From the IMG/VR virus record IMGVR_UViG_3300045135_001512, positions 1 to 21,359 of that record: DNA of 21,359 nucleotides; one strand, given 5' to 3'. Source of the DNA: a virus. A program made the translations under genes and the position numbers. Shown piece by piece: positions 3,285-21,125 of this stretch. The notes beneath the pieces were generated by a model. It saw only the letters and a program-made list of their open reading frames with translations, had not been told where the DNA came from and made no database searches. Numbering within the stretch: position 1 is the first letter of the stretch; each line of letters opens with the position of its first letter.

Positions 3285-4814
3285 TTACTTCAATAACATA
3301 AAGTTATTAGCAGCTTGAGTAATTAAACATCTTTCAGTTAAGAAGTGTAGTCTCATTACATCTAAAGCAGTTGTAGCAGCACCAACAGAACCAGTGATCC
3401 AAGTTTTCATTCTTCTATCATCAGTTTGTGAAGCTCTATAACGTACGTGTAAGAAAGGTCTCTTCATGCTCTGTCCAACAGTTTGATCATAAACTGAAGA
3501 AGTACCAGCAGGTATCATGACTCCTCTAATTGCGTTAACACCAGCAGCACTGTTAATACCACCTCTTGTAGCTTTATCATTTAAGTATCTGAAGTCAGAC
3601 TTGTAGAAGTCATAAGAACCTCTTCTGAAACCAGTGAAACCTAAATTTAACGCCATATCCTCAGAATTGTTAAATACTCCGTAAGAAGTACCAGCAAGAC
3701 CGTAAGAGTTCATACCAGCTAACATGTCATCAATAGCTAGGCTAGTTGATCTGTTTAAGAACATCATGTACTCTTCAATAGCACCTTGCTTGTCAAACTC
3801 AGCAAGTATTGCATCAAACTCATCTAAATCAGTTTGTGGAGCAGCACCAGTAATACCAGTAGTAATGTTTCCTCTGTCTTCGATAGCGTCAAATAAACCT
3901 TGAGTACCTGTTTCGTTACCAGTCTCACCATATAAAGCGTTACCAGCAGATTCAGTTTGGTCATTACCAGCACCACCTTTTTCAGATTCTAACATTGCCA
4001 TTTCAATGTAATCAGTGAAACGAGCTCTAGTATCAGCTTCAGCTTTTAGGTACCATAAGTAACCTGATTGTCCGTTTTCAGCAGATACTTCAACCCAACC
4101 AATTCTAGAAGTATCAGATCCTGAAACTTCGTAGTAATCTTTCATGATAATTGGCTTGTTAGTAAAAGTTTGGAATTTAGGCTCGTTAGCACCTCTAGTT
4201 TCAATGTCGCCAGAAGAAGCGTCAGCAGCTCTATATCCAGAACCTTTTGAGTATTCAGAACCATAAACTAATATAGTTGTTCCGTTAGCAGTTGTATTTA
4301 AAGTTAACGTTGCAGTTCCATAAGGAGCTACGTCAATAACTTCATTAGCAACTTTTACAACTAAAGCTTTAAAAACACCATCAGAGTTAGCAACAATAAT
4401 AGTATCGTTAACTCTTACTGCGTGATCAACAGAACCAGAAGAAACAGCAGCTCCATCGATTTCTTTTTCTAAAGTAATTTGAGAAGATCCTGTAGAAGAA
4501 CCACCAGTACCAATACCACCAGCAGCAGATGAAACTTTACCAGTGTATGATAAATGTAGTCTACCTTGCTCAGACCAAACTACTTGATCAGATTGCATTG
4601 CTTCTTCAGCACCAACCTGTGCTAGGAAACCAGAAATTGTTCTAGGTCCAAAAACCTCAGCTTCTTTTTCCATTAGCTCTGGAAGATATTGTTGTCTCCA
4701 GTCATTAGGCGTAGACGCCCCTGTAAAATCAAGGTAGTTATTAACTAATGTTTGCTTATTAGGAGCAGGAACACTATTTAAATTACCACCAGGATTCGAA
4801 ATATTATTCGGCAT
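3285..4814 (-). CDS. Major capsid protein
   Basis: This 509-residue protein is the probable HK97-fold shell protein. The N-terminus is flexible (Asn/Pro-rich to about residue 25). The segment at residues 43-87 (YLPELMEKEAEVFGPRTISG and on to VVWSEQGRLH) is, from memory, a hallmark of capsid proteins in marine and crAss-like podoviruses. Ser/Gly/Thr-rich beta stretches at about 92-200 may be an inserted surface domain. The C-terminal part carries FLHVRYRASQTDD and a hydrophobic end. It lies directly after a scaffold-like gene (20-base gap) and before a strong terminator, the classic place for the capsid gene. No separate maturation protease is visible nearby. The leader is A/T-rich with no Shine-Dalgarno sequence. 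Residue use (Ala/Gly/Ser/Thr-rich, few Cys) fits a highly expressed shell protein. Confidence 0.85.
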   Translation of the reverse strand: MPNNISNPGGNLNSVPAPNKQTLVNNYLDFTGASTPNDWRQQYLPELMEKEAEVFGPRTISGFLAQVGAEEAMQSDQVVWSEQGRLHLSYTGKVSSAAGGIGTGGSSTGSSQITLEKEIDGAAVSSGSVDHAVRVNDTIIVANSDGVFKALVVKVANEVIDVAPYGTATLTLNTTANGTTILVYGSEYSKGSGYRAADASSGDIETRGANEPKFQTFTNKPIIMKDYYEVSGSDTSRIGWVEVSAENGQSGYLWYLKAEADTRARFTDYIEMAMLESEKGGAGNDQTESAGNALYGETGNETGTQGLFDAIEDRGNITTGITGAAPQTDLDEFDAILAEFDKQGAIEEYMMFLNRSTSLAIDDMLAGMNSYGLAGTSYGVFNNSEDMALNLGFTGFRRGSYDFYKSDFRYLNDKATRGGINSAAGVNAIRGVMIPAGTSSVYDQTVGQSMKRPFLHVRYRASQTDDRRMKTWITGSVGAATTALDVMRLHFLTERCLITQAANNFMLLK

Positions 4815-4834: not shown

Positions 4835-6052
4835 TTATTTATTTTTAATTTTAAACTTAAAAGTTGGAGAAGTATCATCGTTAAGCACTCTAACTCTAGG
4901 GCCGCTAGTGTTATCATTTGAAAATGCCTGCCTTGGATCCATACTTACGTTTTTAGCCTTAGCAACACTTTCTTTCATAGCATCAGCTTTACCTTGCTCG
5001 TAAAAATGCTTAGCAATAGCGTCGGGATTCATTGCTGTATATAAAGATTTATGATAACCTTTAGCATCTGACATTTCATTATTTTCGTTCAAGAACTTCT
5101 TGACAAAATTATTAATGTCGCTTTGAGTTTCTTTTATCTCACCAGCGTTCTTCACGTTAAACCGATATTTTTTATCACCGACGTTGTATTCAAAACCTTT
5201 GAATTTATCGTTAAAAACTTCTTGAGTTCTTAATTTAAAAGTATTAGTTTGTTTTTCCGCTATTTTTTTATTCTCTTCGTTTTCTTTGTTGTATCTATTA
5301 AAAAAGTCCCAAGCCTTTTGTTGTTCAGGCGTTAGCCTACTTCCAGCTTTAACTTCTTCATAGTATTTAGACTTTTGCCCGTCTAAGTGGCTTTTAGCGT
5401 TAGCAACTTGCTCTTTCAACGCTATTTTCTTTTTTCTTATTTCTCTATCTTCATCTACTTCTTCATCGTATGAAAATGAATCATCAATTAAAAAAGTAAT
5501 TTCCTCGTCTGTAAGATGTTTCTTTGTTTGTTTATAATACTCTCTTAATACAGTCATATCATCATAACTAGAATAATCTTGATTAAGACGTACATAATCT
5601 TCTAAATTACCACCAGTTTCATCCATAAAGTCCATAAGCTTTTGTATGTTCTCTGGAAGTTCTTTGCCAGTTTCTTGAGCTTCTTCTATAGCTTCTTTAA
5701 CTTCTTCAGCTAATTCTTCTGTTTTTTCTTGAACTTCTTCTTCTGTTACTTCCTCAATAACGGGTGCTTCATCTTGAACTTGTTCGGAGACTTCTTCTCC
5801 GGTAGGTTTTTGATCTGTTGCTTCGACGACTTCTTCGAGTACTTCTTCGCTAGTTTCGGATTCGTCGCGTACAGGAACCTCATCTGTGCTTTGCTCTGGA
5901 ACGGCATCTTCTTTTGTTTTTGGTGGTTTAGTTAAATCTACTTTTATTACCTCATCTTCAGAGGTTTTTGTTTCGTCACTTAAAATTTTAACTTTAGTAA
6001 CGTTGTCTTCAGCAGCCTTTTCGACTACTTCTTCTTTTTTCTTTTTTGCCAT
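4835..6052 (-). CDS. Scaffold-like capsid assembly protein
   Basis: This 405-residue protein lies between the portal and capsid genes, the usual position of a scaffolding protein. After a basic start (MAKKKKEEVVEK) it has a very acidic, Glu/Val-rich, low-complexity region to about residue 135, then a charged helical middle and a Gln/Lys-rich coiled-coil-like stretch. It ends in a basic tail, FKFKIKNK. An acidic, helical body with a basic C-terminus is typical of scaffolds, whose basic tail binds the capsid shell. There is no protease motif, membrane segment or signal peptide. Scaffolds are too divergent for assignment by sequence alone, so the call rests on composition and position. Its leader shares an AT-rich stretch ending in TTATATTATGGCAAAAAA with the gene at 2404-3216. 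Confidence 0.65.
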   Translation of the reverse strand: MAKKKKEEVVEKAAEDNVTKVKILSDETKTSEDEVIKVDLTKPPKTKEDAVPEQSTDEVPVRDESETSEEVLEEVVEATDQKPTGEEVSEQVQDEAPVIEEVTEEEVQEKTEELAEEVKEAIEEAQETGKELPENIQKLMDFMDETGGNLEDYVRLNQDYSSYDDMTVLREYYKQTKKHLTDEEITFLIDDSFSYDEEVDEDREIRKKKIALKEQVANAKSHLDGQKSKYYEEVKAGSRLTPEQQKAWDFFNRYNKENEENKKIAEKQTNTFKLRTQEVFNDKFKGFEYNVGDKKYRFNVKNAGEIKETQSDINNFVKKFLNENNEMSDAKGYHKSLYTAMNPDAIAKHFYEQGKADAMKESVAKAKNVSMDPRQAFSNDNTSGPRVRVLNDDTSPTFKFKIKNK

Positions 6053-10708: not shown

Positions 10709-10980
10709 TATTTTGATCTACCTTCTGCAAATCCTTTAAATACTTTTACTTTATCTTCAGGTTCTTTACCTTCTAATAAGTTTTCTTCTTCTTGGATCCT
10801 GTTTAATATTTCAAACGCATCAAATATTGCTAGCTTTTTTGTAGCAGCTGCATTTTTTAATCTATCAGCAGATATATCATCATCGGAGTCTACGATAGGC
10901 TCTTTAGCAACTTTGATTAATTCATCAACTGCTCTCTGCCCAGCCTGGATTATATTCTTCTTCGTCTCCTTGATATTCAT
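10708..10980 (-). CDS. Small helical protein, possible terminase small subunit
   Basis: This 90-residue protein is predicted almost wholly helical: ETKKNIIQAGQRAVDELIK, an acidic loop (DSDDDISADR, 31-40) and a second helix (KNAAATKKLAIFDAFEILNR, 42-61) with an acidic end. It lies just before the large terminase and ends in TAATG, overlapping that gene's start by one base. Position, size and helical make-up suit a terminase small subunit or a packaging accessory protein. I see no clear helix-turn-helix, so the call is positional. Its first 56 bases overlap the end of the double-GroES-like gene in another frame. No later Met could serve as an alternative start, so the overlap appears real. Confidence 0.5.
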   Translation of the reverse strand: MNIKETKKNIIQAGQRAVDELIKVAKEPIVDSDDDISADRLKNAAATKKLAIFDAFEILNRIQEEENLLEGKEPEDKVKVFKGFAEGRSK

Positions 10981-11536
10981 ATTTAATTGTAATAAATTTT
11001 GATAGTAATCTATATAACTTCTTACCGTCTATAATAAACTCATATTCTGAGTTTGGTCTAAATCCTATTAAATCTCCTTCGTTAACCGTACCGTCTGTGT
11101 ATTTAACAACACCCATTAAAGGCTGTTCTTTTTCTGAACTTAGTTTATTTGTTGATTTTATAGGTGCAACAAAACAATAACCTTTCATTGCTTGCCACTT
11201 TCTATTATGATAACTAAATATAGCTTTTGGTTTGTGTAAAAATATTTGATCTGGTTGTACTAAATAATTATCTTCATCAATATAAGCTCTACTGTTTTTT
11301 TCTATACCGTGTTGGTTGTGCCATCTTCTAAAAACGTTATGATGTACAATTACAGTATCACCAACTTTAATATCTGTTTCACCTACAGTTGGTATCGCTT
11401 TTACTATAGCTTCTCTGCTAATATATTGATGATTAAATATTTCAGTATTTACTATTAACTCTTTACCGTCTATATCTTTTGTATTGTTGTATCTTGATTT
11501 TACAGGCGTTACAACAAAGTTGTAAACCGCTTTCAT
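10925..11536 (-). CDS. Tandem GroES-like-fold protein
   Basis: This 203-residue protein reads as two Cpn10-like units. Unit 1 (1-101) starts MKAVYNFVVTPVKSR, has the GroES-type EAIVKAIPTVGETDIKVGDT turn (42-61) and ends with YLVQPDQIFL. Unit 2 (about 116-188) starts AMKGYCFVAPIKS, then GVVKY, NEGDLIGF (152-159) and DGKKLYRLLSKFITIKY (170-186), matching the order of the classic GroES end 'GD.V.F...DG.....L...DI'. The first unit also resembles the separate GroES encoded at 18672-18929 (MQAVNNYIIVEKIK). Two fused GroES folds are known in plastid Cpn20. Whether this protein caps a chaperonin or only shares the fold is unknown. It follows the 73-residue gene with a TAATG overlap and ends inside the next gene. 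Confidence 0.6.
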   Translation of the reverse strand: MKAVYNFVVTPVKSRYNNTKDIDGKELIVNTEIFNHQYISREAIVKAIPTVGETDIKVGDTVIVHHNVFRRWHNQHGIEKNSRAYIDEDNYLVQPDQIFLHKPKAIFSYHNRKWQAMKGYCFVAPIKSTNKLSSEKEQPLMGVVKYTDGTVNEGDLIGFRPNSEYEFIIDGKKLYRLLSKFITIKYEYQGDEEEYNPGWAESS

Positions 11537-13223: not shown

Positions 13224-13457
13224 TTAATACCCACTACTACCACTGCTGCTACTACTAACAGTTGATGAAGATGTAGGTGTAATTGTTGGTGCGGTTAAAG
13301 ATGCAACAGCACTAGCGTGAGTTGCACCTCCCATATAACCTGTTTGTCCTTGATAAACGTGTGTGTGATAACCTTGAACATTATTTTGAAGCGCCCAGTT
13401 TAAAGCCTCTTGAGGAGTTGAATATAAAGGTATACCATCTATTGTTGTTAATATCAT
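13224..13457 (-). CDS. Small Ser-rich protein of unknown function
   Basis: This 77-residue protein starts MILTTIDGIPLYSTPQEALN and has a core, GYHTHVYQGQTGYMGGATHA, that I recall from small marine phage proteins located near holins and virion proteins. From about residue 58 it is Pro/Thr/Ser-rich, ending SSSSSGSSGY, likely disordered. His and Tyr in the core (HTHV, THA) are notable but do not form a recognised enzyme site. Its start overlaps the end of the zincin-like gene by four bases (ATGA), so translation is probably coupled. The following holin-like gene begins 11 bases later. Function unknown; a lysis accessory or virion role is possible by position. Confidence 0.55.
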   Translation of the reverse strand: MILTTIDGIPLYSTPQEALNWALQNNVQGYHTHVYQGQTGYMGGATHASAVASLTAPTITPTSSSTVSSSSSGSSGY

Positions 13458-13855
13458 GTATTAGCTGTTCTTTCCCAAGGAAAATCATCACCAGCTTCTT
13501 TCCACTGACCATCAACTTTAATCATATCTTTACCGTTTCTAGTTTCTCTTGGGTATGTTATACCATCATAATATACTGCGTCGTCGCTATAAGCTAACTT
13601 GCCTAACTTCATATCAGTAGCATGCCTCATTTCATGCAACAATACTTGTCTTTCTTCTTCACTTCCAGGTTGTACCTTGTTGCTTACAAATATACTACCG
13701 TCCATATTAGCTTCGCCAAGTATACCTTCATCTAATTTTTTTCTTATAACAGGATTACCAGGTATAGACGCATCGCTTGACTTGAAGCTAAGTTTTTTAT
13801 TTAAAACTCCACCGCTAGCTATTGGCTGCTTAGCTCTACCTAATTTAAATGCCAT
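13454..13855 (-). CDS. Minimal zincin-like metallopeptidase (DUF4157/gluzincin-like)
   Basis: This 133-residue protein carries HEMRH at residues 74-78, a perfect HExxH zinc motif, on a predicted helix (ERQVLLHEMRHATD). The stretch before it, EANMDGSIFVSNKVQPGSEE, matches the strand-turn-helix layout that precedes HExxH in DUF4157-type proteases, which have an 'I.f....pgs.e...lL.HE..H' pattern. At the very C-terminus, E128-R-T-A131-N132 fits the ExxAN third-ligand motif of gluzincins. So a complete but minimal active site can be proposed. No signal peptide or transmembrane segment is seen. It is joined to the basic protein upstream by a TAATG overlap and to the Ser-rich gene by ATGA. Likely roles are virion maturation, entry or lysis. 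Activity is inferred. Confidence 0.6.
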   Translation of the reverse strand: MAFKLGRAKQPIASGGVLNKKLSFKSSDASIPGNPVIRKKLDEGILGEANMDGSIFVSNKVQPGSEEERQVLLHEMRHATDMKLGKLAYSDDAVYYDGITYPRETRNGKDMIKVDGQWKEAGDDFPWERTANT

Positions 13856-14139
13856 TATTTTTCACCACACTTTTTACTTGGATTACCAACCTGTCTCCAG
13901 TCTTGTTTTACCCAAGTTTTTAAACTACCACCACTACTAGTGCCAGTTACATTACTTTTGCTTGATCTTTTATATTTACCAGCTTTACCCGCAGCCCTTT
14001 TAGCACGTATAACAGCTTGTCTTTCAGACTGGCTCATACTAGCTATTTTAGCTTTAGGCAGACATACTTTAGTAGTACCTCCGCCTTTAGCTTTAGTCTT
14101 TGCAACTTTTTTAAAAGGATTACGTTTTTGTAAATACAT
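13855..14139 (-). CDS. Small basic protein, MYxQxxNPFKK type, DUF5872-like end
   Basis: This 94-residue, strongly basic protein begins MYLQKRNPFKK. The same MYxQxxNPFKK opening occurs in the gene at 15115-15387. The middle has CLPKAKIASMSQSERQAVIR and AGKYKRSSKSNV, and a Ser/Gly linker leads to SLKTWVKQDWRQVGNPSKKC. From memory, that last part recalls the DUF5872-type end of small phage proteins with a SLKxWxxxxW pattern. Two Cys (26 and 91) are present. Predicted roles are nucleic-acid binding or virion incorporation. Its stop overlaps the start of the zincin-like gene by one base (TAATG), and it follows the Lys/Ala/Met-repeat gene directly. Function is not established. Confidence 0.55.
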   Translation of the reverse strand: MYLQKRNPFKKVAKTKAKGGGTTKVCLPKAKIASMSQSERQAVIRAKRAAGKAGKYKRSSKSNVTGTSSGGSLKTWVKQDWRQVGNPSKKCGEK

Positions 14140-14421
14140 TTACTTCTTTTTCTTAAGTTTAGCAGCAGATTTGTCCATTTTTAATTTCATAGCTGAAGCT
14201 TTTTTCATCATAGCTACAGATTTTTTCATCATAGCCATAGACTCTTTCTTCATTTTCATCGCAGCTTTCTTCATTGTAGCTGGAGAAGCGTCAACAGCAG
14301 CTTTAAATTTACCACTTAACTTACCAGCCGCAGAAGCAGCTTTTAATTTTGCGTTGAATTTAGCTGGAGCTTTTTTCATTTTAGCTGCAGATTTTTTTAG
14401 TTTAGCAGGAGCTTTTTTCAT
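14140..14421 (-). CDS. Histone H1-like Lys/Ala/Met repeat protein
   Basis: This 93-residue protein has 31 Lys, about a dozen Met, many Ala and only three acidic residues. Short units repeat: MKKAPAK at 1-7 and 15-21, and MMKKSVAMMKKASAM near 64-78. The central part AASAAGKLSGKFKAAVDASP is less regular, and the end is KLKKKK. The composition is like the tail of linker histones or bacterial histone H1-like proteins, suggesting charge-neutralising DNA contact or virion DNA condensation. No folded domain is evident. It lies in the basic-protein block, directly between the PAP2 gene and the DUF5872-like gene, with 0-1 base gaps. It could instead be a peptide tail evolving by repeat slippage. Confidence 0.6.
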   Translation of the reverse strand: MKKAPAKLKKSAAKMKKAPAKFNAKLKAASAAGKLSGKFKAAVDASPATMKKAAMKMKKESMAMMKKSVAMMKKASAMKLKMDKSAAKLKKKK

Positions 14422-14422
14422 T

Positions 14423-14953
14423 TTATATCTTGTTTTTAATATGTTTATACATTGAGTTACCTAATTGTTCGCCCATTTTACTGTCAGACTTATAGTGAGC
14501 ACGGGCAACTCTACGACTATAAGATATGTTTTCCCCTGTTTTAGCAAAAGCTGATTTTGCTTTAGGGTGTTTATCACCTAATACTTTAGCTATTAAAATA
14601 CCTTGAACAGAGTGTCCAGAAGGATATGATTTAGTCTTCATTGAAGCCATTTCATAGTTAGGCAGTTTTTTATCTAAGTCTTTAGGTCTTGGTCTATTAT
14701 GAAACTTCTTTAATTCTAAGATTACAGGTGCAGAGTCTTTTATTAACTTTGCAGCAACCTTTTTATCATAATCTTCTACATTATTGTCTTTAGCAGTCTT
14801 AGCAAAAGCAGTTTCTATATTATCAAACTTCTTTACAAAATCTTTTTTTAAAGGTATTTTTTTAAGTTCGTTTATTTCTGTACGAGTAGTATAACCACTA
14901 TCAACTGGTGGTTTCATTTTTTTAAAACTACTTATATTAAAATCTTTAAACAT
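14423..14953 (-). CDS. PAP2-type (class A acid phosphatase-like) phosphatase
   Basis: This 176-residue protein has the full three-part PAP2/haloperoxidase active site. K82-x6-R89-P90 is the first motif (KKFHNRPRP), PSGH at 111-114 the second, and S146-R147-x5-H153-x3-D157 the third, written SRRVARAHYKSD. These residues bind and attack phosphate in acid phosphatases and lipid phosphatases. It has no signal peptide or transmembrane segments, so it is a soluble member, unlike most bacterial lipid phosphatases of this family. A Lys-rich N-terminal third surrounds the catalytic core. It sits among the basic mini-protein genes, 1-2 bases from each neighbour, suggesting it may be a virion-carried enzyme. 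Possible substrates include nucleotides or phospholipids, but none can be told from sequence. Confidence 0.85.
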   Translation of the reverse strand: MFKDFNISSFKKMKPPVDSGYTTRTEINELKKIPLKKDFVKKFDNIETAFAKTAKDNNVEDYDKKVAAKLIKDSAPVILELKKFHNRPRPKDLDKKLPNYEMASMKTKSYPSGHSVQGILIAKVLGDKHPKAKSAFAKTGENISYSRRVARAHYKSDSKMGEQLGNSMYKHIKNKI

Positions 14954-14954
14954 A

Positions 14955-15122
14955 TTATTTAGGTCTGTTTGTTTGCATGTTAATAAACCAGTTAGCTAGC
15001 TGCTTATCTCTAGCCGTAGCATCTCGTCTAGCTTTTAATCTTCTAGCTTTATTTACAGTTACATCACCACCATAAAGCTTAGATATACGAGCTTTTAATA
15101 CACCTCTATACGCTTTACTCAT
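14955..15122 (-). CDS. Tiny basic protein, 55 residues
   Basis: A complete 55-residue frame starts with ATG at 15122-15120 and ends with TAA at 14957-14955. It reads MSKAYRGVLKARISKLYGGD followed by a basic helix containing KARRLKARRDATARDKQ and ends with the segment ANWFINMQTNRPK. The ATG overlaps the end of the previous gene by eight bases and the next ATG lies one base after the stop, so the spacing fits a true gene in the packed block. Composition is basic like its neighbours, with no tag motif. The ARDKQLANWFINMQ end recalls small marine phage proteins. Function is unknown; nucleic-acid or virion association is only a guess from charge. Confidence 0.6.
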   Translation of the reverse strand: MSKAYRGVLKARISKLYGGDVTVNKARRLKARRDATARDKQLANWFINMQTNRPK

Positions 15123-15387
15123 CTTTCTTTTTACCTAAACGTTTTCTAACTATATTCTGTGTAGTTTTCATTTTACGAGCATAACCTGGGTTTTTACCTC
15201 TGTTAAATACTATTTGTTGATTTAAACTACTTATAATTCTAGACAAGTTACCTTTACGTGATTTTATAAGCCAACTAGCCAAACCTGACGCTGACAAGCT
15301 TTTAAACTTACCTTTAGCATCTGGCGCGTCTGAGTGTTTAAAATCACCCATACGTTTTTTAAATGGATTATTGCCTTGTGTATACAT
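15115..15387 (-). CDS. Small basic protein, MYxQxxNPFKK type
   Basis: This 90-residue basic protein starts MYTQGNNPFKK, sharing the MYxQxxNPFKK opening with the gene at 13855-14139. The core FKSLSASGLASWLIKSRKGN (28-47) followed by LSRIISSLNQQIVFNRGKN looks like a small helical domain that I recall from marine phage mini-proteins. The C-terminus is very basic (RKRLGKKKDE). No enzyme motif or membrane segment is seen. It begins immediately after the stop of the 52-residue gene and overlaps the 55-residue gene by eight bases. Predicted role: nucleic-acid binding or virion cargo, by charge and neighbours. Function is not established. Confidence 0.6.
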   Translation of the reverse strand: MYTQGNNPFKKRMGDFKHSDAPDAKGKFKSLSASGLASWLIKSRKGNLSRIISSLNQQIVFNRGKNPGYARKMKTTQNIVRKRLGKKKDE

Positions 15388-15546
15388 TTAGCACTTACCT
15401 TGTCTTTGCGTTCTAGACGCCCACATATTAGCATATGCAGAAGGGTATACTTTGAATTTTCTTTTTGCAGCAGCTTTACAACTAGCGCTAAGCTTAGCTA
15501 AAGCTGGTGACTTTTTTAATTTTAATGCTGATGCTTTGTTTTTCAT
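15388..15546 (-). CDS. Tiny basic protein with CKAAAKRKFKVYPSAYAN motif
   Basis: A complete 52-residue frame starts with ATG at 15546-15544 and ends with TAA at 15390-15388. It reads MKNKASALKLKKSPALAKLS, then CKAAAKRKFKVYPSAYANMW and an RTQRQGKC end. The CKAAAKRKFKVYPSAYAN stretch is a known-looking module of small phage proteins from marine viruses and cyanophages, seen here near the C-terminus. The start contains the SPA form of the SPxK tag shared with other basic genes. There are two Cys. It is separated from its neighbours by 1 and 0 bases, which supports expression. Function is unknown. Confidence 0.7.
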   Translation of the reverse strand: MKNKASALKLKKSPALAKLSASCKAAAKRKFKVYPSAYANMWASRTQRQGKC

Positions 15547-15547
15547 A

Positions 15548-15868
15548 TTAGAATTTTGGATTTATTGCAAAATTTATCATTTTATTTAAAAGACCTGGGC
15601 CTTTTTTCTTTTTCTTTTTCTTTTTCTTTTTATCTTTTTCAACAACCTCTGCTTTTACAGGTTTTACAGCTGCCATACCTTCTAAAAACCCTAGTGCAGC
15701 TTCACCAACAATTGAAGTAGGTTCTTCTTTACTCATCATACCAGCAGCTTCCAATAAAACAGCGTCAGGATTTATGCGAGAGTTTCTAGCTGTAGCTATA
15801 TTTTTTACAGGAGATTTACCAGGATAAGTAAAACCTTTCATTTTAAATGGGCCTTTTTTAGTTTTCAT
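15548..15868 (-). CDS. Tagged basic protein, FKMKGF...SPVK type, with poly-Lys run
   Basis: This 106-residue protein opens MKTKKGPFKMKGFTYPGKSP, sharing FKMKGF and the SPVK element with the genes at 15871-16446 and 16837-17451. Residues 30-75 are a more neutral, Ala/Met/Glu-containing helix region (NPDAVLLEAAGMMSKEEP, then GEAALGFLEGMAAV). A ten-lysine run follows at about residues 80-89, encoded by a hexanucleotide-like repeat at 15602-15631, then GPGLLNKMINFAINPKF. The neutral helix makes it the least basic of the tagged set. It is spaced 1-2 bases from its neighbours. The tag suggests a common fate such as virion packaging or common partner binding. Confidence 0.65.
   Translation of the reverse strand: MKTKKGPFKMKGFTYPGKSPVKNIATARNSRINPDAVLLEAAGMMSKEEPTSIVGEAALGFLEGMAAVKPVKAEVVEKDKKKKKKKKKKGPGLLNKMINFAINPKF
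15602..15631 (-). repeat. Hexanucleotide microsatellite coding for ten lysines
   Basis: On the minus strand this is AAAAAG repeated four times followed by six A bases, encoding ten consecutive Lys codons. It lies inside the tagged basic gene at 15548-15868. The perfect hexamer makes it liable to slippage that adds or removes two lysines without a frameshift. Confidence 0.85.
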
Positions 15869-15870
15869 AA

Positions 15871-16446
15871 TTATCTCTTTTTTCTTCTGACTCTTGTTAT
15901 TAAATCACGTTCTTGCTGAAAAGTCATTTTTCCTTTCATTTTAGGATTAGCATCTGCAGTACCCATTGTACCCATCATCATACCTGCAATACCTGTAGCT
16001 CTTTTACCAGCAATCTTACCAAAACCTTTAGCTACATTTTTAAAGTTTCTAAAAATTCTACGACCAAAACTTGTTGGTTTTTTATTTAAAATATCTTTCA
16101 TTTTACGCGCTTGGTCAGCTTTATAACTCATTTTGTTTGAAAAGTTTTTGTAATTTATTTCTTTTCCTTTTGCAGTCATGTCACCACCAAGATGGCCAGG
16201 CTTTAAAGGTCCTAGCTTAACTTTTCTACCTACAGTGCCTGTTGCTTTTTGAGCGTCAATTTTAGGTGTAGCAAAAGTTGCAGATTTTCCTCTTACAGCT
16301 TGGTTTAACTTGTCGTTAAGAGTCATATCTACTTTTCCAGCTGCAGAATAAATATTCCTAACATTTTTAGCTTTTTTGTTTTGTTTTACAGGCGAATTAC
16401 CAAATCCTGAAAAACCTTTCATTTTAAAACTACTTTCTTTTTTCAT
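15871..16446 (-). CDS. Tagged basic protein, FKMKGFSGFG...SPVK type
   Basis: The start at 16446 is preferred over one 78 bases upstream, because it gives MKKESSFKMKGFSGFGNSPV, nearly identical to the start of the gene at 16837-17451, and leaves a normal 13-base gap to the upstream gene instead of a long overlap. The 191-residue product is very basic. After the tag it contains a Lys-rich linker, a region with GPLKPGHLGGDMTAKGKEIN and helices FRNFKNVAKGFGKIAGKRAT. A Met/Gly stretch (AGMMMGTMG) leads to the basic end RVRRKKR. No enzyme motif is seen. The protein-level identity of the tag despite synonymous base changes points to selection for the peptide itself. Confidence 0.6.
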   Translation of the reverse strand: MKKESSFKMKGFSGFGNSPVKQNKKAKNVRNIYSAAGKVDMTLNDKLNQAVRGKSATFATPKIDAQKATGTVGRKVKLGPLKPGHLGGDMTAKGKEINYKNFSNKMSYKADQARKMKDILNKKPTSFGRRIFRNFKNVAKGFGKIAGKRATGIAGMMMGTMGTADANPKMKGKMTFQQERDLITRVRRKKR

Positions 16447-16459
16447 ATTTTTATATTTT

Positions 16460-16834
16460 TTAACATTTCCACCTACGTCTAGCTGCTTTACCTCTTTCGC
16501 CAGTCCAACCTTTTGATCTTGCACAAAATGATTTTCTACGCTTAGCAGCTTTACTACCAGGTTTTACGTCGCCTGTTACGGCTGTTTTTAATTTACTACC
16601 AGGGTTTTTACGTCTATACTCTGCAACACCTTTACTTGTCATACCTGCTCCTTCTTCTACAGTTCTAAAGTTTCTACCTTTACCTTTAGTTGTTTTTCTT
16701 GGCTCATTACTTTTCATTAAAGGTGAACCTAAGTTTCTACGTCTACCACAGCTAGAAACAGGAAAAGGGTTACCGCTCTGAACGTAACCCTGAGACTTAT
16801 TAAACATTTTGTTTTGCATTGGTGATCCTGGCAT
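16460..16834 (-). CDS. DUF6321-type basic protein
   Basis: This 124-residue protein ends in a domain I recognise as DUF6321-like: EEGAGMTSKGVAEYRRKNPG (60-79), KLKTAV, then KPGSKAAKRRKSFCARS (91-107) and the end RRRWKC. From memory it is common in cyanophage and marine phage genomes. The N-terminal half has two tag-like motifs: MPGSPMQNK at the start and GNPFPVSSCGRRRNLGSPLMKS at 21-42, the second related to the NPF and SP elements of its neighbours. Cys lie at 29, 104 and 124. It is strongly basic (Arg/Lys). It lies between two FKMKGF-tagged genes, 2 bases after one and 13 before the other. Function is unknown; nucleic-acid or virion association is a guess from charge. Confidence 0.75.
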   Translation of the reverse strand: MPGSPMQNKMFNKSQGYVQSGNPFPVSSCGRRRNLGSPLMKSNEPRKTTKGKGRNFRTVEEGAGMTSKGVAEYRRKNPGSKLKTAVTGDVKPGSKAAKRRKSFCARSKGWTGERGKAARRRWKC

Positions 16835-16836
16835 TG

Positions 16837-17451
16837 TTATAATCTATTTCTGTTAGGATTTTTTCTTTTTCTTTTAATATTACCTATAACTTTTTTAGCT
16901 TTATCTCTTACGCCTCTTCCTATACCAGATAATACTCCTCCTCCAAAAGATAACCCCGCTACTTTTGCCGCAGCTCCGGCTGCTGCTGGAAATGCTGCAG
17001 CTGCCATAAGTGCTCCTGCTGTTGGTAAAGCAACTTGAACAAGATCACGCCCTGTTTCTCTTAAGTTAGATTTAAGTTTTGCACGTCTTTGCTTACGAGT
17101 AGTTTGGCTAATTATTCCTCCTGCAGGAACATGTTTTTTAAATCTTCCTCCTTCATAAATATCAGCCCCTGACTTTGGACTTTGTCTTTTAGTAATAGTA
17201 GCTCCTCTAACTCCTTTTTTAAATTCACGTGTTACAGTATCACCACTTCTTTTTGTTTTAGTAGTTTTAAAAGCTTTTTTCTTACCAGGCTTGAACTCTT
17301 TAACTTTTCTTACAGTACCATCTCTTCTTGTTCTAGTAACTGTTTTACCACCTGTATCTTTATTTATAGTTACTGTTTTTTTCTTTGCAGGTGATTCTTC
17401 AGTCCCAAAACCACTGAAGCCTTTCATTTTAAATGTTGATTCTTTTTTCAT
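16837..17451 (-). CDS. Tagged basic protein with Ala/Gly-rich hydrophobic segment
   Basis: This 204-residue protein begins MKKESTFKMKGFSGFGTEES, the same tag as the gene at 15871-16446 with synonymous changes (for example GGT TTT TCA versus GGC TTC AGT). Residues 25-130 are a Lys/Arg/Thr-rich, low-complexity region with repeated KTVTRTRRDGTVRKV-like strands. Residues 137-178 form an Ala/Gly-rich hydrophobic stretch (ALPTAGALMAAAAFPAAAG onward), followed by a basic tail (KRKRKNPNRNRL). The hydrophobic stretch might touch membrane, so a role in DNA ejection is possible but unproven. Its ATG overlaps the stop of the winged-helix-like gene by one base (TAATG). Confidence 0.65.
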   Translation of the reverse strand: MKKESTFKMKGFSGFGTEESPAKKKTVTINKDTGGKTVTRTRRDGTVRKVKEFKPGKKKAFKTTKTKRSGDTVTREFKKGVRGATITKRQSPKSGADIYEGGRFKKHVPAGGIISQTTRKQRRAKLKSNLRETGRDLVQVALPTAGALMAAAAFPAAAGAAAKVAGLSFGGGVLSGIGRGVRDKAKKVIGNIKRKRKNPNRNRL

Positions 17452-18671: not shown

Positions 18672-18929
18672 CTAGTCTATCAATACTACATCACCTGAAC
18701 GGATAACATAGTAAAGAGTTTCTTTATACTGAACACCATGCCCAGCATGTTTATCATAATAAACAACATCGTTGTTTTTTATTCCTTGTACAAGGTTACC
18801 AATTGATATTACTTTGGCCTTTATATACCTATTGTCCGCATCTACATCTTCAGTCAATATAAGTCCACCAATTTTTTTTGGCCCTTGTTTTATTTTTTCT
18901 ACGATTATATAATTGTTAACTGCTTGCAT
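18672..18929 (-). CDS. groES: GroES co-chaperonin (Cpn10)
   Basis: This 85-residue protein has the Cpn10 pattern: MQAVNNYIIVEKIK at the N-terminus, a mobile-loop region KKIGGLILTEDV (18-29) with GGLILTE matching the GroES loop motif 'GGIVLT', then KAKVISIGN (37-45), GIKNNDVVYYDKHAGHGV and a C-terminal strand ending SGDVVLID. It is slightly shorter than bacterial GroES (about 95-97). The protein caps a GroEL ring during folding. Its start lies inside the groEL 3' end, a 14-base overlap, giving the order groEL-groES, opposite to bacteria. AGAGG lies just before the ATG but too close for a classic ribosome binding site. Confidence 0.85.
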   Translation of the reverse strand: MQAVNNYIIVEKIKQGPKKIGGLILTEDVDADNRYIKAKVISIGNLVQGIKNNDVVYYDKHAGHGVQYKETLYYVIRSGDVVLID

Positions 18930-20487
18930 TTCCTCTCATGTTTGAAATTATACAATCAGCGGATATAATAGTAGTTACAACACTTACCGCATTTTTAAGT
19001 GCTGACTTAGTTACAAGCACTGGATCTATAATACCTTCTTGTATCATGTTGCACTCAGTGTTGTATTTTACATTTACACCTATACCATCTGTAGGCTCTG
19101 CAGCTCTATATATACCAGCATTATCTAATATAGTTTGGTATGGTGATCTTATTGCGTTTAGCAATATTTTTTCAGCTTTGTTGTCTACATTGTAAACTAC
19201 GTTCTGCGCAGCGTTTAACAACGCAATACCACCGCCAGGTACAATACCTTCTTTTAAAGCAGCTTTAGTAGCGTATATAGCATCTTCAACTCTGTCTTTC
19301 TTTTCTTTTAATTCTACTTTAGTTGCTGCGCCTACACGTACCATACCTACTTTACCTGATAACATAGCTAAACGATCTTGTATTTTTTTCTTCATAAAAG
19401 CATCTTTTTCCTTTTTTATTGCTTTTTTTACGTTTTCAATACGATCTTGTAAGTCTATATCTAAATCTAGCGTAGTAATTACAGTATTTTTGCTATTTGT
19501 AACGGCTTTATCAGCTTGACCAAGGCAATCAACAGTAATTAAGTCCATATCATCGCCTAATTCTTCATTTATTACTGTCGCGCCAGTTAAAAATGCCAAA
19601 TCTTGCACTGTATCTTGCTTAGTTGGGCCAAAACCTGGTAAATCTACTATATTTACCTTAATATTACCCTTAACTTTATTCATTAAAAGCGCTGATTTTA
19701 CACCATCATCAACTTTTGCAACAATAAGCAGCTCTTTTTTGTTCTTTATGACGTGTTCTAGTATAGGTTGTATCTTACGTATGTTAGGTATTTCGCTACC
19801 TACGATCAAAACTAGTGGTTCTTCAAGTACAGCTTCATGTTTTTCAGTGTCTGTAACAAAATGTGGTGATATTAAAGGGCAGTCAAACTGTACACCATCA
19901 ACAATGTCAACATATGTTTTTTCAGTTTCTGAGTTTTCCATGAAAACTACACCATCTTTACCAACTTTATTGTAAGCTTCTGCTATAATTATACCTAAAT
20001 CACGGTCGTTATTACAACTTATACTACTTACATCTTCTAGCATACTACCTTCTACATCTATAGCAGTGTCTGTAAGGTATGTATTTACTCTTTCTAAAGC
20101 AGAGTTAATACCATCTTTAATATCTCTTATAGAAATATCTTTATATTCTTCTTTATTTACTTCTTTTATCAGTGCTTCAGCAAGAACGGTAGCTGTAGTA
20201 GTACCGTCACCTGCTTCTTTCACTGTATTTTGCGCTGCCTGCTTAATAAGCATAGCACCTAGGTTTTCAACCGGGTCATATAAGACAACAGATTCAGCTA
20301 CTGTTACTCCGTCTTTTGTAATGACCGGGTTGCCTCGTGCATCTTCATAGATCACACATTTCCCAGAAGCACCAAGGGTAGATTTAACTGCTTGAGCAAG
20401 TTTATCTACACCTGCAATTATTTTTGATTTAGCGTCTTGACCAAAGTTTAATTCTTTGATAAGATCACTCGGGTGATTATATTCCAT
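18916..20487 (-). CDS. groEL: GroEL chaperonin (Cpn60)
   Basis: This 523-residue protein is a complete group I chaperonin. The ATP motif GDGTTT is at 93-98, GVTVAE at 60-65 and VEDA with the catalytic Asp (D402, equivalent to E. coli D398) at 400-403. The hinge motif GIVPGGG at 414-420 and a DPVLVTKSALKNA end (488-500) are present. The apical domain (about 195-330) shows PHFVTD at 208-213 in place of E. coli SPYFIN, so two of three substrate-contact aromatics (Y199, Y203) are changed while Phe remains. The Gly/Met-rich C-terminal tail of bacterial GroEL is missing, ending MRGNASS. It probably folds phage virion proteins. groES follows with a 14-base overlap. Confidence 0.95.
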   Translation of the reverse strand: MEYNHPSDLIKELNFGQDAKSKIIAGVDKLAQAVKSTLGASGKCVIYEDARGNPVITKDGVTVAESVVLYDPVENLGAMLIKQAAQNTVKEAGDGTTTATVLAEALIKEVNKEEYKDISIRDIKDGINSALERVNTYLTDTAIDVEGSMLEDVSSISCNNDRDLGIIIAEAYNKVGKDGVVFMENSETEKTYVDIVDGVQFDCPLISPHFVTDTEKHEAVLEEPLVLIVGSEIPNIRKIQPILEHVIKNKKELLIVAKVDDGVKSALLMNKVKGNIKVNIVDLPGFGPTKQDTVQDLAFLTGATVINEELGDDMDLITVDCLGQADKAVTNSKNTVITTLDLDIDLQDRIENVKKAIKKEKDAFMKKKIQDRLAMLSGKVGMVRVGAATKVELKEKKDRVEDAIYATKAALKEGIVPGGGIALLNAAQNVVYNVDNKAEKILLNAIRSPYQTILDNAGIYRAAEPTDGIGVNVKYNTECNMIQEGIIDPVLVTKSALKNAVSVVTTIISADCIISNMRGNASS

Positions 20488-20847: not shown

Positions 20848-21087
20848 CTATTCGTTTCTCGTGCCTTTACCGAAGTTGCCACGATTATTTCTTATTGAAA
20901 CCCTTTTTACACTACCGGATTTAGTATGATGTAGATCACTATTAGAACTCTGGCCTAATCTTTGATTTTCTGCTTTTTTAGCTCTACGAGCTGGGGTTTT
21001 TGCAGTAGCAATATCTCTTGCTTTTTTAGCCGCAGCAGCTTTTCTACTTAGTTTTTGTTTTGTTAGTGTAAATGGTGATGATTTCAT
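20848..21087 (-). CDS. Small basic protein, SPF-tagged
   Basis: The start at 21087 (MKSSPFTLTK) is preferred over one nine codons upstream, because the extra residues are hydrophobic and unlike the family, while MKSSPF fits the SP-type openings of other basic genes in the window. The 79-residue product is basic: KAAAAKKARDIATAKTPARR (16-35), AKKAENQRLGQ, then SDLHHTKSGSVKRVSIRNNR (50-69) and GNFGKGTRNE. From memory, the NRGNFGKGTxNE end is a common signature of small phage proteins in marine metagenomes. It is the first gene after the 272-base non-coding region, so it may be the start of the late block. Function unknown. Confidence 0.6.
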   Translation of the reverse strand: MKSSPFTLTKQKLSRKAAAAKKARDIATAKTPARRAKKAENQRLGQSSNSDLHHTKSGSVKRVSIRNNRGNFGKGTRNE

Positions 21088-21125
21088 ATAGTATATGATT
21101 ACATAGTAAAACAATTATTTAAAAA

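Follow-up and report, generated by a model that had tools for sequence, protein, structure and literature searches.

A conserved N-terminal FKMKG leader on unrelated late proteins of a marine flavophage lineage: a candidate signal for procapsid loading

Introduction

The internal proteins of bacteriophage T4 share a single feature, a capsid targeting sequence (CTS) that sends them to the prohead's scaffold core (PMC3012670). Encapsulin targeting peptides, which are short and mostly C-terminal, load unrelated proteins into a shell of the HK97 fold (PMC8346489), and C-terminal segments of scaffolding proteins, the hook of phage P22 and the last 25 residues of the herpes simplex virus 1 (HSV-1) scaffold, bind coat protein (PMC12005531). 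The virion of crAss001 stores cargo proteins, which are large and conserved (gp45-gp50; PMC10172136), and the virion proteins listed in PMC13288928 are the methylated ones only. Here we describe a leader peptide, [A/x]-F-K-M-K-G, often with S-P-x-K within about 30 residues, which was found in the virus record IMGVR_UViG_3300045135_001512 (positions 1 to 21,359; this whole stretch of 21,359 bases, with genes called mechanically, is the window referred to below). Judged from sequence comparisons, the leader is real and selected, and is found on dozens of late proteins, otherwise unrelated to one another, in a single lineage of uncultured viruses of marine bacteria. We give a probability of about one half to its being a modular signal for loading proteins into the procapsid.

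Results

A leader peptide on unrelated late proteins

An earlier note on the window, made from its letters alone, had pointed to three genes opening with a nearly identical peptide followed by SPxK, and these are indeed present on the minus strand: 16837-17451 (204 residues, starting MKKESTFKMKGFSGFGTEESPAK, pI (isoelectric point) 11.6, without a Pfam or PHROG match), 15871-16446 (191 residues, starting MKKESSFKMKGFSGFGNSPVK, pI 11.0, with the likely ATG at 16446 and the mechanically called open reading frame (ORF) opening at a GTG at 16524) and 15548-15868 (106 residues, starting MKTKKGPFKMKGFTYPGKSPVK). FKMKGF is the stretch common to all three, SPAK or SPVK comes after it, and the bodies that follow are unrelated to each other (best blastp E value 7.5). 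The note called these proteins tiny and basic; the second word fits the block (pI 9.9-11.6), the first does not fit the two tagged proteins of about 200 residues. In the two longest leaders synonymous codons do stand behind the same residues, as it had observed (GGC TTC AGT GGT TTT GGG against GGT TTT TCA GGA TTT GGT), and local gene duplication as the source of the copies is ruled out by the unrelated bodies together with these differing codons.

An exact scan for MAFKMKG in any coding retrieved at least 120 IMG/VR stretches, compared with 12 for the permuted peptide MAKFMKG, none of which had a hallmark gene of the tagged lineage in the fetched stretch. The terminase of this lineage is encoded by 44 of the 46 tagged contigs checked. 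The earlier note had named equal occurrence in host proteins as an outcome that would refute its interpretation, and on this point the result favours the note: MAFKMKG has only 27 scattered matches in 84,980 bacterial and archaeal genomes (257 Gb), none virus-like. They fall within long frames, or else on frames that are short or unrelated and lack the viral features. These figures rule out a host-derived tag. The FKMKG peptide was not found in the literature searched.

The 198 tagged proteins from the fetched loci fall into 88 unrelated body clusters, 67 of them singletons, and Pfam assigns names to almost none. When 89 representatives were aligned, the only conserved part was MAFKMKG......SPxK. 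Nearly all carriers have the tag at the N-terminus; the F and M of the tag are at least 90% conserved, the methionine of FKMK being nearly fixed (180 of 185, counted on KMK-bearing tags), and an SP falls within residues 9-40 in 68 of the 198 proteins (4.8 expected). Ten of the 198 also carry a motif resembling DGRxxSSAFQK, a second short motif that recurs in tagged phages (L101, L109, L136, L137, L140, L141, and L154).

The tag is largely confined to one strand. Along 12 long contigs, which were picked via the tag and so give no unbiased frequency, it stands on 40 of 524 genes of the terminase (late) strand and on 1 of 271 genes of the other (Fisher p 7e-7), and most of the tagged genes lie upstream of the terminase gene by 3-12 kb, or else at the far end of that strand. 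The related pattern SP[LFAVMIY][KRQNYE], within the first 40 residues, was found 42 times on the late strand (5.7 expected) and never on the other (2.4 expected). Late proteins of 2,535 and 3,297 residues open with an SP-type motif, and so do Gly-rich ones that look like ejection proteins. In loci selected by their terminase, the generalized pattern [FY][KR][MLIFV][KR] was enriched at both protein ends (11 N-terminal and 66 C-terminal matches, against 3.3 and 3.7 in shuffles) and not in interiors (82 against 74). An origin by chance or composition is ruled out by the permuted-peptide, shuffle and strand controls.

Selection on the peptide and exchange between bodies

Across 143 genes with MAFKMKG, the codon choice for F, K and G is about the same in the tag as in the bodies behind it. 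GCA serves as second codon in 71% of tags and 27% elsewhere; codon bias right after the start is a usual start-codon effect. The view of the earlier note that the peptide itself is selected is well supported by all of this, from the unrelated bodies and background-like codons to the restriction to one phage lineage and its late strand.

Body families of the window occur with either leader or with none. Among relatives of the DUF6321 protein (16460-16834, minus strand; GSPM and GSPL in its leader), four have an FKMKG-type leader, 14 an SP leader and eight neither, and for the small basic GGGTTKVCLP family (13855-14139, minus strand) the figures are three with an FKMK-type leader, five with SP and nine with neither. 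Leaders have therefore been exchanged between bodies.

The putative scaffold and its tail

Between the portal and capsid genes lies a minus-strand gene (4835-6052) whose product ends in SPTFKFKIKNK and is, by position and make-up, a putative scaffold protein. It is acidic (pI 4.8), and its predicted structure has helices at 103-367 with low-confidence ends, the tail being predicted as disordered behind the helical body. A Foldseek search with it returned nothing convincing, which excludes nothing. F-K-hydrophobic-K lies within the final 20 residues in 58 of the 73 homologues (0.3 in shuffles), and 69 show a looser C-terminal pattern; in the terminase-selected loci, 39 of the 40 proteins with a C-terminal match are the scaffold. 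The homologues in the elemo phages and phi38:1 are annotated as "structural protein", so the scaffold candidate may remain in the virion.

The tag was not found in the motif-scanned parts of four relatives, MW202828, Panino, elemo and phi38:1 (Panino was covered without its first 27 kb, and the other ends of MW202828, elemo and phi38:1 served for annotation), except that the elemo scaffold homologue opens with MFKMK. Since that motif occurs where no tag was seen, the comparison suggests that the scaffold motif predates the tag.

A nested gene (5746-5907, minus strand; phrog_1375, E 4e-5) lies in the +1 frame of the scaffold gene; it starts MPFQSKAQMRFLYATNPKL, contains MPFQSKAQMRF and has KFKMKHPLLRK at its C-terminus. 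Homologues were seen inside the scaffold gene of L047, L052, L075, L104, L170, and L195, with a partial one in L050, and many other loci have a different basic +1-frame ORF at this site.

A minigluzincin-like family with the leader

The minus-strand gene at 13454-13855 encodes a candidate minigluzincin-like metallopeptidase (a zincin) with the leader MAFKLG, the motif HEMRH and the invariant Glu128. Each of the 12 long tagged contigs has one gene of this family; the parts of the four untagged relatives that were scanned showed none. HExxH is present in 91 of 92 members; H74, E75, H78 and E128 are invariant in 67 sequences, in which the conservation of F3 and K4 is 90% or higher. The M-x-F-K start is kept about as strictly as the zinc ligands. 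The leaders are FKLG in 48 cases, FKMK in 21 and close variants in the rest. A profile search matched MJ1213 (E 0.002), and the structural model (pLDDT, predicted local distance difference test, 75) gave weak matches (best Foldseek E 0.15; VIA-align Z up to 6.1). Both sequence and model weakly point to minigluzincins (selecase, abylysin) and IrrE-like peptidases, which have HExxH and a further invariant Glu in common with the family, and a small fold that it may share; the phage proteins have in addition the FK(L/M) leader and, at the C-terminus, an FPWE motif. The zincin may be a delivered peptidase.

Gene context of the window

The window encodes a terminase, a portal, head proteins, a holin, GroEL and GroES. 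Its terminase is 64% identical to that of MW202828 (Manatee Spring) and 44% to those of the Flavobacterium elemo phages, with Cellulophaga and Tenacibaculum phages as more distant relatives; the capsid protein has the same relatives plus Maribacter phage Panino, and gene maps were drawn for four relatives. By these comparisons the window phage is a marine relative of the flavophages, a lineage that we take to be close to the crAss-like viruses. The head protein at 3285-4814 (minus strand), probably the major capsid protein, is the proposed receptor of the leader. There are two GroES-like genes (10925-11536 and 18672-18929, minus strand), the second adjoining GroEL (18916-20487).

All the related pieces listed in the earlier note (KKAPAK, KKSPA, GSPM, GSPL, and SSPF) were found in the window, and its list is extended by MAFKLG on the zincin, KFKMK at the end of the nested gene and the tail of the putative scaffold. 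On the minus strand, 15388-15546 encodes a small basic protein (phrog_27331) with KKSPA and the leader MKNKASALKLKKSPAL, and 15115-15387 another with the leader MYTQGNNPFKKR, replaced by an FKLK-type leader in one relative. KKAPAK lies in a Lys/Ala/Met repeat protein (14140-14421, minus strand) that has a domain in common with proteins tagged in relatives; Met/Lys/Ala repeat runs (AMKMKKEA...) occur in this protein and in tagged and related proteins of L091, L138, and L146. SSPF is in the leader of a basic protein (20848-21114, minus strand) that is only weakly homologous (E 0.0023) to phi38:1 gp080, annotated as structural. Within the block of basic proteins there is also a PAP2-superfamily phosphatase-like protein (14423-14953, minus strand), barely over the Pfam cut-off.

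Discussion

On the loading hypothesis, a varying assortment of small accessory proteins, basic for the most part, would be produced late in infection; through the leader they would dock on the inside of the capsid as it forms, or else on the scaffold core. The docking site would probably be the one used by the F-K-hydrophobic-K tail of the scaffold, the simplest model given that the C-termini of the P22 and HSV-1 scaffolds bind coat protein. Docked proteins would then be enclosed, kept with the DNA and delivered at the next infection. The idea of the earlier note that the tag loads proteins into the virion stands as the best explanation available, supported by the likeness of the leader to the C-terminus of the scaffold and by giant and ejection-like late proteins that bear the SP motif, while its interpretation as a whole is partly supported. 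The sequences themselves show the leader, its selection as a peptide, its confinement to one lineage and the late strand, its exchange between bodies and the conserved scaffold tail; binding to capsid or scaffold, packaging and delivery are inferred. The further step, an imitation of the scaffold tail by the tag, is less certain than virion loading itself, and we hold it tentatively. With the same reserve, one may imagine the imitation as an exchangeable loading code, in which the gain of FKMKG would make any late gene virion cargo, including a small metallopeptidase perhaps serving the head.

Several observations weigh against this picture. The strict tag is patchy: of 21 terminase-selected loci that extend 5 kb or more upstream, five carry it (14 when variants such as FKLG are included, one or two of these matches looking like chance), and the exact pattern was seen in 1 of 15 long contigs, several of which end near the terminase gene; a tag on every member of the lineage is ruled out by these counts. 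Where the tag has its methionine, the scaffold C-terminal words that were listed show F, V, I or L and never M, so the tag is no plain copy of the tail. No co-variation of tag and tail was seen by eye, and apart from SPTF nothing in the window scaffold tail corresponds to SPxK. Neither a Peptidase_S78 nor a ClpP-type prohead protease was found in 15 contigs (the T4 gp21 family was not searched); since neither was seen there, the zincin is entertained, speculatively, as a head protease.

Other explanations have to be set beside procapsid loading. The leader could be a basic amphipathic element that binds or condenses nucleic acid, the tagged proteins coating phage or host DNA late in infection without a specific capsid receptor. 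The tagged proteins are mostly basic (median pI 9.8), lysine and hydrophobic residues alternate in the leader and many bodies are Lys-rich, but 43 of 190 bodies have a pI below 7, the peptide is far more specific at its F and M than charge demands, and the acidic putative scaffold ends in the same F-K-x-K pattern; we consider this explanation unlikely, though the least unlikely of the four discussed here. The tagged proteins may instead be factors of late host takeover or lysis acting in the producing cell, with the leader targeting a host component, as would suit accessory genes of variable content on the late strand with a holin-like gene nearby. Such a role leaves unexplained both the pattern shared with the putative scaffold C-terminus and the SPxK motif on giant late proteins, and we rank it below the coating of DNA.

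Lower again we place the idea that the leader is docked to or processed by some late phage factor that is not the capsid, such as the zincin or the phage GroEL/GroES. The zincin accompanies the tag in the long tagged contigs and was missing from the examined parts of the untagged relatives, and the GroEL and GroES genes adjoin the block. However, FKLG zincin genes are present where no strict tag was seen, the zincins bear the leader themselves and look more like clients, and the untagged relatives have GroEL/GroES too. Finally, the leader might act at the nucleotide level, as a translation start context or a recombination seam, with the peptide as a by-product. The preference for GCA as second codon and the high variability of the tagged region could be read in this way, but near-background F, K and G codons, synonymous changes between the window copies and the occurrence of the motif at varying offsets from the ATG and at protein ends leave this explanation nearly refuted.

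Should the leader be a loading signal, the injected proteins of abundant marine phages, nearly all such genes being unknown, would become readable from sequence, and the tag would offer a minimal means of putting proteins into such capsids. If it is a code in the sense proposed above, the tag would amount to a direct inventory of the accessory proteins that these viruses inject. A phage lineage besides the T4 group would then have a general cargo code, one tied to a recognisable part of the scaffold.

Among the systems described so far, crAss001 belongs to a related virus group and its virion also stores cargo, which differs in being large and conserved, with no shared leader peptide reported in the available part of PMC10172136. 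Encapsulin peptides resemble the tag as short terminal peptides that load unrelated proteins; they serve a cellular compartment, have another motif and are mostly C-terminal, whereas the tag is mainly N-terminal and sits in phage genomes bearing a terminase, on which grounds we reject it as an encapsulin targeting peptide. The P22 and HSV-1 scaffolds share with the putative scaffold a short C-terminal segment, here the conserved F-K-hydrophobic-K tail. P22 has a helix-turn-helix there, whereas the tail of the putative scaffold is predicted as disordered, alternates hydrophobic residues and lysine, and has a similar motif on accessory proteins.

The closest likeness in logic is with T4, whose CTS is N-terminal. 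As in T4, a short N-terminal peptide stands on otherwise unrelated accessory proteins, and these are encoded with the late (head) genes. The lineage differs, being that of crAss-related flavophages, and the peptide resembles a scaffold C-terminus; we liken the two by logic and do not claim membership. In each of the two systems, a short peptide is all that a diverse and fast-changing group of small accessory proteins has in common.

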